NCBI RefSeq assembly: GCF_003130255.1
Contig: NZ_NRCN01000001.1
Location: forward strand, 372,001-436,000
Reading direction: 5' to 3'
DNA length: 64,000 bases
From: Aggregatibacter kilianii
GTDB lineage: Bacteria > Pseudomonadota > Gammaproteobacteria > Enterobacterales > Pasteurellaceae
Shown: positions 13,362-44,659 of the stretch, one piece after another
How the letters are laid out: the number at the start of each line of letters is the position of its first letter
Position numbering within the stretch: position 1 is the stretch's first letter
Notes under the pieces: generated by a model
What the model was told of the DNA's origin: nothing
The model's database searches: none
The model's input: only the letters and a program-made list of their open reading frames with translations
Program-made: the position numbers and the translations under genes

Positions 13362-13731
13362 AATGATTCCCTTTGATTGATTAAAACTTAGGTAAAAATT
13401 TACCCGCCCGAAATGACGCCTTTAAGCTGTCAAATTAGTCGTCACTCTACCATTGTTCCATTAAAAACTGAAAAATTTTTTCTGCTTTTTATGTAATATG
13501 TGATCCCTATTGTAATTTGTGATAGCACATAAAAAATTAGAAATTCATTGCGCGCTTTGCTATCTTAACGCGCAAATCTTTTACCGCCGTTTCACATTCG
13601 GCAGATTAGAAACACTGAAAATGATGAGTCATCACTTCAGCGATGACTTCCCCTGCGGGGCAGTCGGCATAGCCGATGTTCAAAATCCGTTGGATTTTGT
13701 CAACCGCACTTTGATGCATAAGGGCAATACA
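13362..13731. other. pntA-sfsA divergent intergenic region
   Basis: These 370 bases hold the upstream regions of the divergent pntA and sfsA genes. No confident promoter is visible. A GGTAAA/TTTACC palindrome lies near 13391-13404 and a four-hairpin cluster at 13628-13699 (separate entry). An open frame runs through from 13519, but it lacks homology to SfsA and is treated as noncoding. Confidence 0.6.
13628..13711. repeat. Cluster of four perfect hairpins ending in an uptake signal
   Basis: Four short perfect inverted repeats follow one another: GTCATC/GATGAC (13628-13647), CCCC/GGGG (13650-13660), TCGGC/GCCGA (13664-13676) and CAAAATCC/GGATTTTG (13681-13699). An uptake signal ACCGCACTT follows at 13703-13711. 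Such dense palindromes are typical of REP- or MITE-like dispersed elements; no second copy was seen in this window. Confidence 0.55.
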
Positions 13732-41133: not shown

Positions 41134-42867
41134 GTGAATATTCAATCTATTTTATCCGAAAAAATCAAACACGCGATGCTTTCTGCCGGTGCAGATTCGC
41201 AATGTGAAGCGTTGGTACGTCAATCGGGCAAAGTACAATTTGGTGACTATCAAGCTAACGGCATAATGCCTGCCGCAAAAAAATTAGGATTAAATCCGCG
41301 TGAATTTGCGCAAAAAGTCTTAGAAAAAGCCGAATTACAAGATATCGCAGAAAAAACGGAAATTGCCGGTCCGGGATTTATTAACATTTTCCTGAAAAAT
41401 GCTTGGCTTGCGGAAAATATCAATAACGCTGTAAAAGATCCAAAATTAGGCATACACAACCACGATAAACAAACCGTTGTTGCAGATTATTCCTCCCCGA
41501 ACGTTGCCAAAGAAATGCACGTTGGCCATTTACGCTCTACCATCATTGGCGATGCTGTAGTTCGTACACTTGAATTTTTAGGCAACCATGTTATCCGCGC
41601 CAACCATGTCGGTGACTGGGGAACCCAATTCGGTATGCTGATTGCTTATTTGGAAAAAATGGAAAATGAACATGCCAGCGAAATGGAATTGAGTGATTTA
41701 GAAGCCTTTTATCGTGCGGCTAAGAAACATTACGATGAAGATCCGGTATTTGCCGAAAAAGCCCGTAATTACGTGGTGAAATTACAAAGTGGCGATGAAT
41801 ACTGTCGCACTATGTGGAAAAAATTGGTGCATATCACTATGCAACAAAACCAACACAACTACGATCGTCTAAATGTCACCTTAACGGATAAAGATGTCAT
41901 GGGCGAAAGCCTTTATAACCCGATGTTGCCGGGGATTGTCGAAGATCTGAAAAAACAAGGTTTAGCCGTTGAAGATGACGGTGCGTTAGTGGTTTATTTG
42001 GACGAGTTTAAAAACAAAGACGGCGACCCTATGGGGGTTATCGTGCAGAAAAAAGACGGTGGTTTCCTTTACACCACCACCGACATTGCTGCCGCCAAAT
42101 ATCGTTATGAAACCTTAAAAGCCGACCGTGCGTTAGTGTTCTCCGATACGCGTCAAAGCCAACACATGCAACAAGCATGGCTCATCACCCGTAAAGCAGG
42201 CTATGTGCCGGACAGCTTCCAGTTGGAACACAAAAATTTCGGCATGATGTTAGGTAAAGACGGCAAGCCATTCAAAACCCGTAGTGGAGACACCGTAAAA
42301 CTGGCGGATTTATTAGATGAAGCGATTGAACGGGCGGGCGTATTAATTTCACAAAAATCCACCGCACTTTCTGATCAAGAAAAAGCGGATGTCATTGAGG
42401 CTGTCGGTATCGGCTCGGTGAAATATGCAGATTTATCCAAAAACCGCACCACGGATTATGTGTTCGATTGGGACAATATGTTGAGCTTTGAAGGCAACAC
42501 TGCGCCTTATATGCAATATGCCTACACCCGTATTCGTTCGATTTTCAATCGTAGTCAAATTGCTCTAAGCGAAGTGGAACAAGCCCAATTAAGCATTACA
42601 GATGAAAAAGAACGTGCTTTAGCAATCAAATTATTACAATTTGAAGAAGCTATTCAAATAGTAGCAAAAGACGGCACACCACACGTGCTTTGTGCTTATT
42701 TGTATGAGTTGGCAGGCGTGTTCTCTTCTTTCTATGAGCATTGCCCGATTTTAAATAACGAAGATCAACAGGTGAAATTAAGCCGTTTGAAATTGGCTTT
42801 ATTAACAGAACGAACCTTAAAACAAGGATTGGATTTACTCGGCATTAAAACCGTTGAGAAAATGTAA
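41134..42867 (+). CDS. argS: Arginine--tRNA ligase (GTG start)
   Basis: This 577-residue class I synthetase charges tRNA-Arg. It starts at a GTG codon with AAGG 7 nt upstream. The N-terminal tRNA D-loop-binding domain is followed by the HIGH-type motif in [17 protein letters not shown]. The FKTRSG loop takes the place of KMSKS, and the C-terminal domain has CPIL..E and [11 protein letters not shown]. The length equals that of E. coli ArgS. Confidence 0.96.
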
Positions 42868-42880
42868 TCTGACGCCCAAA

Positions 42881-42913
42881 CAATATCCCGTTCATTTGAG
42901 CGGGATTTTTTTT
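42881..42913 (+). terminator. Terminator after argS
   Basis: ATCCCG/CGGGAT arms around TTCATTTGAG are followed by eight T residues, 15 bp past the argS stop. Confidence 0.85.
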
Positions 42914-42955
42914 ATTTGTTAACAAACCGAATTGTCGATTCTAAGAAAATAGGCC

Positions 42956-42982
42956 AAAAAAAGTGCCTCAATAAGAGGCACT
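42956..42982 (-). terminator. Intrinsic terminator of the candidate CRP-controlled RNA
   Basis: An 8-bp stem AGTGCCTC/GAGGCACT with a 5-nt loop is followed by seven T residues on the minus strand. No minus-strand protein gene precedes it between here and 43226, and ydgA has its own terminator at 43147-43195. Confidence 0.85.
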
Positions 42983-43033
42983 ACTCGGAAAGCAAAATAT
43001 GTTTGGCTATTGATATAGCACTTATTTTTATTA
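42956..43033 (-). ncRNA. Candidate CRP-controlled small RNA (about 78 nt)
   Basis: On the minus strand a promoter (TTGCTT, 17 bp, TATCCT) is followed by about 78 nt and a strong terminator, with no ORF. The RNA begins with a GCACT/AGTGC hairpin (possibly extended by TTGGC/GCCAA). A single-stranded stretch with TTTTGCTTTCC follows, then the AGTGCCTC/GAGGCACT terminator with seven T residues. A CRP-like site is centred about 60 bp before the start. I do not recognise a known RNA family. Confidence 0.62.
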
Positions 43034-43039
43034 GTGCCA

Positions 43040-43068
43040 AGGATACTGAATAAACCATCATAAAGCAA
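43040..43068 (-). promoter_or_regulatory. Promoter of the candidate CRP-controlled RNA
   Basis: TTGCTT (43063-43068) and TATCCT (43040-43045) on the minus strand are 17 bp apart. The predicted start is near 43033. Confidence 0.55.
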
Positions 43069-43085
43069 ATGGTTATAGGTTAATT

Positions 43086-43101
43086 TGTGAGCTAAATCAC
43101 G
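43086..43101. promoter_or_regulatory. CRP-like site before the candidate small RNA
   Basis: CGTGA-N6-TCACA on the minus strand has one mismatch to consensus. Its centre at 43093.5 is about 60 bp upstream of the predicted RNA start, the class I spacing seen at lac. Confidence 0.65.
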
Positions 43102-43146
43102 GTTTTACATAAAATTTACCCTACTCCAAAATTAACTTTACAAATA

Positions 43147-43195
43147 AAAAAGTGCAGTCGATTTTCAAAACATTTAAAAATCTCACCGCACTTTT
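43147..43195 (-). terminator. Terminator after ydgA
   Basis: AAAAGTGC(A)GT pairs with AC(C)GCACTTTT, an imperfect uptake-signal pair, followed by T residues on the minus strand. Confidence 0.55.
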
Positions 43196-43225
43196 AATCC
43201 ATTAATGGGAATAGATTAATCTAAA

Positions 43226-44659
43226 TTATTGCCCCATCGACATCATGGCTAAAAACAGGATAGAAACCACTTGCTCTTCCGGAATCACTTGACCGTTTAA
43301 TTTCAACTCGCCTTTTTCCAACACAAGATCCAATTTCACTTGTTTGCCGTCATCCACTAAGATGCCTTGTTGAACGCCTTGTTTTATGTCTTGTTCAATC
43401 TCCGTAGCTGCCATTTTGGTTGCTTGTTCTTTATCTAAACTTGGTGACTGCAATCCGGTGGCAACCTGTTCAACCAACGCTTCTTTATTAACATCCACTT
43501 TAAAAATAAAGTGATTGAATAAGTTGAAGATTTTACCTTCTGCCAATAAGTTCTCAAAATCGGAATTAGCAATGGAAAAATCTAAATTACCGACCAGTTT
43601 ACCTTTTTTATTGGTTAAGGTTGGTGTAAAAATAAATTGAGGTTGGGTATTAAGGAATTTTTTGACCGCTGCGATTTCCTCATCACTTAAGTCTTCTTTT
43701 TTCTGTTTAGCTGCTTCGGTAAAAATATGCATTAATTGGTTGAAGGTTTCACCATCAACATGATTAAAAGCCGAATCAATGTTTAAATCGCCAAACTCCG
43801 CTTGATTATAAGTAAAGCCGTTAGCAACTATTTTAGCGGCGGAATCTAGGAACTTCTCTTTTCGCACCGTATTGAAATCCATTTTCCAATCTTTAATGCC
43901 AAAGTGGTTTACCTTGCCTTCAGTATCCGTGTCGGTAATTTTAACCGCACCTCCGGAAACAAATTGCTTGCCGGTGGTCACATAGTCCCACTCCGGAATC
44001 CGCCCATAATTAGCGTCAATTTTCACGTTCTCAAGTTCAAAACCGCTTTTTTTAGTAGCTTCGTTGTACACAAGTTTAGAAAGGGCCAAATCAAGTTTAT
44101 TAATCCCCTCACGTACAAAACCGAATTTTAGTTCAAAACCGTTGATGGCTAATGTACCATCTTTCATGGTAGCCTCAAATGGCACCAACTCCAGTTTGGA
44201 ATCGCCGCTTTGGGTATAGCTAACAGAGGTGGTGACCGTAATCGGTGTTTTGCCTTTAGTAGCATCAAACCAAGGCGCCGTTGTGTCGTTTTTGGTGATT
44301 TGATCGATACTGGAGAACATACTTGGCGCAAAATTAAAACGACTAAGCTGATTTAACGGCAATGGGCCATGATATAGCGTGCCTTCAAATGGTAACACCC
44401 AAGTTTTACTTGAATCATTAAGTGAACTCACAAGAACTTCATATTTGGTTTTTGAACTGAACAAACCACGTTCAAAAGAAACGTTATCAAATCGAATATC
44501 CAAGCCTAAAGAATAGGCGGATTTATTAATATCGTTATTGGCAAGATTAATTTGACGGGCAAATTCCGTTTCGGCAACTTTACCGGTGTACCAAGCACCA
44601 CCGCCCCAAGCGGCGCCTAATGCAATAACGATTCCTAAAGCTAACGCTGATTTTTTCAT
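43226..44659 (-). CDS. ydgA: YdgA family protein (DUF945)
   Basis: This 477-residue protein has an uncleaved-looking N-terminal membrane segment (LALGIVIALGAAWGGGAWYTG) followed by a long periplasmic domain. The blocks RGLFSSKTKYEV, FEGTLYHGPLP and LTNKKGKLVGNLDFSI are typical of DUF945. YdgA-type proteins of E. coli are inner-membrane-anchored and of poorly known function. The gene is monocistronic on the minus strand. Confidence 0.87.
   Translation of the reverse strand: MKKSALALGIVIALGAAWGGGAWYTGKVAETEFARQINLANNDINKSAYSLGLDIRFDNVSFERGLFSSKTKYEVLVSSLNDSSKTWVLPFEGTLYHGPLPLNQLSRFNFAPSMFSSIDQITKNDTTAPWFDATKGKTPITVTTSVSYTQSGDSKLELVPFEATMKDGTLAINGFELKFGFVREGINKLDLALSKLVYNEATKKSGFELENVKIDANYGRIPEWDYVTTGKQFVSGGAVKITDTDTEGKVNHFGIKDWKMDFNTVRKEKFLDSAAKIVANGFTYNQAEFGDLNIDSAFNHVDGETFNQLMHIFTEAAKQKKEDLSDEEIAAVKKFLNTQPQFIFTPTLTNKKGKLVGNLDFSIANSDFENLLAEGKIFNLFNHFIFKVDVNKEALVEQVATGLQSPSLDKEQATKMAATEIEQDIKQGVQQGILVDDGKQVKLDLVLEKGELKLNGQVIPEEQVVSILFLAMMSMGQ

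Follow-up and report, generated by a model that had tools for sequence, protein, structure and literature searches.

CyaR is a small RNA with an anti-ribosome-site pairing region. In the accessible part of PMC8672173, CyaR is described as CRP-activated and Hfq-linked, and Spot 42 and VcdRP as repressed by CRP, which in the case of VcdRP acts at a site upstream of the -35 element (PMC8672173). The VcdRP RNA also encodes a 29-aa protein. Within the Pasteurellaceae, the A. pleuropneumoniae RNA Rna02 (81 bp), a homologue of the RNA studied here, was co-purified with Hfq and confirmed by Northern blotting, was one of four RNAs that were undetected or lower in an hfq mutant, was expressed largely or exclusively in air, and belongs to a family, RF02898, described as still poorly characterized (PMC9577009, accessible part). 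By RT-PCR, Rna02 was positive in aerobic cells and not in anaerobic cells or vesicles (PMC10708910, accessible part). The terms "CRP" and "argS" are absent from the main text of PMC9577009, the accessible parts of PMC10204968, PMC3439734, PMC4986893 and PMC4144887, which deal with other Pasteurellaceae, contain nothing on the RF02898 RNA, and a CRP link of Rna02/RF02898 was not found in the open-licence literature searched.

The window analysed here is a 64,000-nt stretch of the Aggregatibacter kilianii genome (contig NZ_NRCN01000001.1, positions 372,001 to 436,000). An earlier note on this DNA had proposed a CRP-activated small RNA gene on its minus strand, marked by a CRP-like site, a promoter with 17-bp spacing and a terminator with seven T residues; every element that it named is present, and the small RNA interval contains no ORF of at least 60 aa, with frames of only a few codons seen by eye. 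The features are as follows.

43226-44659, minus strand: DUF945 gene
43140..43205, minus strand: terminator-like hairpin belonging to the upstream DUF945 gene, with a T tract after it (fold -21.5 kcal/mol, z -5.43)
43086..43101, minus strand: CRP-like site CGTGATTTAGCTCACA, 9/10 consensus positions, centre at 43093.5
43063..43068, minus strand: -35 element TTGCTT, read from the sequence and aligned across homologues; weak, under the promoter-scan threshold
43040..43045, minus strand: -10 element TATCCT, read from the sequence; a TAnnCT-type hexamer in most homologues
42951..43032, minus strand: small RNA RF02898 (AaHKsRNA20 / Rna02 family), Rfam match 42951-43028, start assumed at 43032
43006..43019, minus strand: 5' hairpin with stem GCUAU/AUAGC, which covaries to GUUGU/ACAAC in other genera
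42983..42996, minus strand: conserved core UUUGCUUUCCGAGU, the likely (candidate) target-pairing region
42956..42982, minus strand: intrinsic terminator, 8-pair stem and seven T
42885..42906, plus strand: argS terminator, converging on the small RNA
41134-42867, plus strand: argS

The terminator stem (42962-42982) contains five G-C pairs among its eight, with the seven T at 42956-42962, and terminator-like hairpins on either side set the DUF945 gene and argS apart from the small RNA unit. The -35 and -10 elements are separated by a 17-bp spacer, and the CRP centre lies 25.5 bp from the -35 and 48.5 bp from the -10 element at this locus (L011), corresponding to -61.5 if the RNA starts at 43032, as assumed. 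For the 82-nt RNA, a fold of -23.2 kcal/mol (z -3.84) was predicted, in which the linker's UUUU is paired to the 5' AAAAUA, leaving only the middle of the linker clearly free in this species; the single-stranded linker proposed earlier therefore holds for the middle of the stretch and not for its UUUU end. The small RNA promoter is absent from the output of a sigma-70 scan of the window (5 sites, compared with 4.1 in shuffles) because its -35 element is poor, and CRP-like sites with at most one mismatch numbered 6 in the whole window against 1.9 expected. Taken alone, these window statistics for the CRP site and the promoter are weak; it is the conservation across homologues, described below, that carries the unit beyond chance. 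Elsewhere in the window, two perfect TGTGA-N6-TCACA sites 41 bp apart (370-385 and 411-426) sit between a LacI-type regulator gene and sugar permease-/beta-galactosidase-like genes, as read from the translations, and the genes next to 370-426 are likely to form a CRP-controlled lac-type operon. A separate Rfam small RNA, RF02902 (AaHKsRNA22), is located at 13611-13709 on the minus strand (55.1 bits, cut-off 39.8).

The small RNA matches Rfam RF02898 (AaHKsRNA20) with 86 bits (cut-off 43) over model positions 1-77 of 77, and the 2018 small-RNA repertoire paper on A. actinomycetemcomitans is said to be the original report of AaHKsRNA20. The RNA is thus already catalogued rather than a new candidate, and the CRP site and its spacing are what is added here; conservation strongly supports the part of the earlier proposal that concerned CRP control. 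Relative to Rna02, it belongs to the same family, matches over the whole model and is of similar size, with nothing different in kind. Covariance models of CyaR (RF00112) and Spot 42 (RF00021) each matched 0/41 Pasteurellaceae genomes, including our own, and among 14 controls only E. coli, which rules out that the RF02898 RNA is CyaR or Spot 42 and agrees with the earlier statement that its sequence is unrelated to either. With CyaR it shares the Hfq link and, as proposed for RF02898, a CRP-activated input and a pairing region directed at ribosome sites, but no relation in sequence was seen. A tie to cAMP-CRP, as proposed for the RF02898 RNA, is also known for Spot 42 and VcdRP, which are concerned with carbon uptake, but they are repressed by CRP (PMC8672173, accessible part), and no counterpart of the 29-aa frame of VcdRP was seen in the RF02898 RNA. 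Since Spot 42 and VcdRP are CRP-repressed, CyaR is the closer input analogue; of the two functional analogues that had been suggested, Spot 42 and CyaR, only the latter fits activation.

The Rfam model found the RNA in 33/61 genomes, namely 33/37 Pasteurellaceae (our own included) and 0/24 genomes from other families of the order, and in 0/14 control genomes. A covariance model built here from 63 sequences (R1), whose search filters are able to lose weak matches, detected it in 127/140 Pasteurellaceae genomes. Among the 13/140 family genomes without a match, one of which is 81% complete, were all sampled species of two genera, g63 (4/4) and g9 (3/3), which suggests loss or strong divergence by lineage in these genera. 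An order-wide draw of 197 genomes gave 14 matches at E <=0.01, 12 of them in Pasteurellaceae; the two outside the family (E 0.003 and 0.007) had neither the core nor a CRP site and were set aside as chance, as was a second match in genome G062, leaving no convincing RF02898 homologue outside the Pasteurellaceae in this draw. When named genomes were scanned for exact copies of the extended core, 63 stretches were returned, 62 of them from Pasteurellaceae by title. The 63rd (L065) comes from a record titled Pseudomonas stutzeri NCTC11607. This record contains the RF02898 RNA, shares about 77% identity with Rodentibacter loci across 3.5 kb and is probably a mislabelled genome.

To these 63 named loci, in which the core is constant by construction because they were chosen for its exact sequence, the 33 genome loci found by the Rfam model (L001-L033) were added, giving 96 loci with 66 distinct RNAs and the rest duplicates. 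The core UUUGCUUUCCGAGU, which may resemble the 5' end of RydC, was exact in 32/33 of the Rfam-found loci, with L030 departing within it, and in 16/17 of the true homologues among 20 further model matches that were fetched, with L192 departing inside it. Two loci without an end (L041 and L068) and one without a recognised 5' hairpin (L056) were not extracted, and the irregular L026, L030 and L082 were left out of the alignment, which comprised 63 RNAs. One of these irregular sequences, L026 (1470-1574), is an RNA copy in which about 30 nt are inserted into the 5' hairpin, in its loop region. In the alignment, thirteen pairs were formed in 98.7% of cells, and 113 double-change cells were counted, whereas shuffles gave 33.1 +/- 4.1 and slid controls no more than 15; one of five covariation measures (further pair types) was no higher than in shuffles, and independent events are fewer than cells because much of the covariation follows a single two-lineage split. 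When only the 29 distinct rows found by Rfam were counted, pairing held in 97.9% of cells and 68 were double-change. The architecture of 5' hairpin, linker and terminator is backed by this covariation.

The CRP site was scored in the 78 distinct upstream regions of the 96 loci, of which 77 were used (L068 being too short), as the best 16-mer against TGTGA-N6-TCACA over 10 positions, with expectations taken from 100 shuffles of each. Sites matching at least 9/10 positions were found in 65/77 upstreams (0.14 expected) and sites matching at least 8/10 in 72/77 (2.6 expected), the five below 8/10 being L001, L002, L025, L066 and L067. Restricted to Rfam-found loci, the counts were 26/33 and 30/33, respectively, and among the 17 further homologues, which include some species counted already, 15 and 17. 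When upstreams were collapsed to less similar ones, starting from the 72 and thus leaving out the five failures, at least 9/10 positions were matched in 40/45; in a 400-kb sample of our own genome, such sites occurred at 0.0375 per kb. The consensus of the site across homologues, AAAAnnGTGAnnTAGnTCACAAATTT, resembles the E. coli CRP consensus. The distance from the CRP centre to the -10 element (n = 72) was 46.5-48.5 bp in 47 cases, 57.5 bp in 2 and 67.5-69.5 bp in 20, the longer spacings exceeding that of our own locus by about 9 and 20 bp; the three odd spacings (L056, L058 and L082) probably reflect a mis-assigned site or promoter, and the weak sites of L066 and L067 also lie 57.5 bp from the -10 element. 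If every start is placed like the one assumed at 43032, the CRP centres come to lie at about -61.5, -70.5 and -81.5. Since class I CRP promoters function at intervals of roughly one helical turn, the series is the pattern expected of activation. With the assumed start, the site thus lies at the class I distance that had been claimed for it, and its spacing is regular across homologues. CRP control with class I geometry is, as a reading of these sequences, strongly supported.

In two strains of A. actinomycetemcomitans, DSM 8324 and HK_961 (L001 and L002), the CRP site is eroded in its left half (7/10), and in a third, SL7469 (L003), a 9/10 site is kept; CRP control may be weak in this species, after which the RNA is named. 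Immediately ahead of the -10 element, an additional conserved TTGACGTA or similar sequence is present in L016, L019, L020, L024, L027-L029, L031, L033 and similar loci, and most promoters of this lineage have the longer CRP spacing.

The genes next to the RNA differ widely between lineages. Under a near-neighbour rule, and with some flanks missing at contig or record ends, the 63 named loci displayed 35 flank combinations, with mdh (19), pheT (11), the DUF945 gene (5) and others upstream, and argS (16), prsA (5), sucA (5) and others downstream (names other than argS and DUF945 being our own reading of translations). The position downstream of argS given for the RNA is correct here and incidental to the family, as the RNA has argS for a neighbour at only some loci (those of Aggregatibacter, the H. 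influenzae group, Necropsobacter and certain others). Since site, promoter and RNA stay together through these neighbourhoods, the CRP site belongs to the RNA, and the alternative that it serves a neighbouring gene is ruled out by the 35 flank combinations in 63 loci. The case for CRP control of the RF02898 RNA, drawn from comparative evidence, is strong, and such control is apparently unreported.

The best explanation, to which we assign a probability of roughly three in four, is that the RF02898 RNA is CRP-activated and Hfq-dependent and blocks ribosome-binding sites through its core UUUGCUUUCCGAGU. At high cAMP, under poor carbon supply, CRP would bind at about -61.5 and recruit RNA polymerase in class I fashion to the weak sigma-70 promoter; the resulting transcript of about 80 nt would consist of a 5' hairpin, the conserved linker and a terminator. 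Hfq would stabilise this RNA, as reported for the homologue Rna02, and the core would pair in trans with GGAAAG-type ribosome-binding sites and lower the translation of several mRNAs. We infer that CRP would be activating rather than repressing and that the core would repress mRNAs. Against this explanation stands the restriction of Rna02 expression largely or wholly to air, for which CRP by itself gives no account. The five upstreams below 8/10, the three odd spacings, the 13 family genomes lacking a match, the departures of L030 and L192 within the core and the failure of every target in the conservation tests also count against it. That CRP binds and represses, or acts together with another (e.g. 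oxygen) regulator, is unlikely in our view, given that the distances to the -10 element (48.5, 57.5 and 68.5 bp) match activating CRP positions, and that the -35 element was too weak to be picked up by the scan, as would be expected where a promoter depends on an activator. Such a role would be like that of Spot 42 and VcdRP, both CRP-repressed, VcdRP via a site upstream of its -35 element (PMC8672173, accessible part), and it would accommodate the oxygen dependence of Rna02 (PMC9577009 and PMC10708910, accessible parts) and the extra conserved TTGACGTA beside the -10 element in promoters with long spacing.

The proposed pairing of the linker with GGAAAG-type ribosome sites fits the conserved core, and target searches, which were partial, yielded candidate pairings. 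In 37 genomes searched for the 10-mer GGAAAGCAAA before an ATG, 30 and 40 further loci among the matches listed were inspected: strings common to G000, G005 and G026 looked internal to coding sequences, a DAHP-synthase-like start with the 10-mer occurred in two genomes (L106 and L162), and no start with the 10-mer was common to more than two genomes among the matches listed. An 8-mer search of 5 genomes led to 20 loci of our own genome (G000) being viewed among the matches listed, and the core with at most two mismatches had 25 matches in this genome, the RNA itself included. Directly before the start of hypF (L195, G000 C1 1819856-1820671), two tandem CTCGGAAA sites complementary to the core pair with the RNA at -20.1 kcal/mol; hypF was rejected as a conserved target, the tandem CTCGGAAA being absent from 18 other loci viewed. 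The best pairing in our own genome involves CGGAGAGCAAAATATG (L261, G000 C1 near 1385110), which lies in the overlap of two ABC permease genes of amino-acid type (only the general model HEQRo_perm_3TM scored above its cut-off), spans the ribosome site and start codon of the second, and forms 16 contiguous pairs with the RNA (-26.3 kcal/mol). This value, for a pairing picked from a whole-genome pattern search, is lower than those of all 414 sampled start regions, among which the minimum was -23.0 for what we judged to be 16S rRNA and -20.8 otherwise. Among 30 loci viewed, many permease orthologues with overlapping genes keep the pairing and non-overlapping ones lose it. Under a null that keeps the protein and the ATG, 0.1% of 14,491 draws paired as well as the permease site; under one that also keeps GGAG, the mean was -24.5 and 22% of 60 draws were as good. 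Because the GGAG-keeping null does nearly as well, conservation of the permease site is no evidence of selection for pairing, and the pairing is largely explained by coding and ribosome-site constraints. In H. influenzae, competence is about 10-fold lower in an hfq mutant, with no small RNA known to be responsible according to the accessible part of PMC3739930; sxy leaders paired with the RNA at background level (mean -13.1 against -13.0 in control windows) in a set of 30 loci that includes some other TfoX-like genes or uncertain starts. No target among permease, hypF and sxy was thus supported by the conservation tests in these partial searches, and the target prediction that had been suggested as a check gave no pairing backed by conservation beyond other constraints.

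These results bear on a second alternative, quite unlikely in our estimate, in which the RNA is a regulator whose conserved core serves chiefly as a sponge for a different RNA or for a protein and not for pairing with mRNA ribosome sites. In its favour, the core exceeds a usual seed in length and has hardly changed within the family, and no conserved mRNA target was found; against it, the searches were partial, the core is complementary to the ribosome-site-like GGAAAG, and the Hfq binding of Rna02 fits mRNA pairing (PMC9577009, accessible part). It is extremely improbable that CRP-like, promoter-like and terminator-like parts fell together by chance between two convergent genes where no small RNA gene exists, a reading that has the window counts given above on its side and is contradicted by the Rfam match, family-wide conservation, covariation, terminators on both sides and a Northern-confirmed homologue.

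A CRP-activated, Hfq-dependent RNA would likely act as a regulator reporting carbon status. In a broader proposal, which we hold with about as much doubt as conviction, RF02898 would be a family-wide cAMP-CRP riboregulator occupying the place of CyaR/Spot 42, with one almost invariant core directed at many ribosome-binding sites and a CRP site that moved in approximately helical-turn steps (-61.5, -70.5, -81.5) as its neighbourhoods changed. To our knowledge, few small RNAs of the Pasteurellaceae have a known input signal, and CRP control gives a widely conserved, Hfq-linked RNA a signal that is testable. The natural series of CRP sites before one RNA is a ready set for studies of class I spacing. 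CRP control of the RNA would tie carbon status to post-transcriptional control in the family of Haemophilus, Pasteurella, Actinobacillus and Aggregatibacter.
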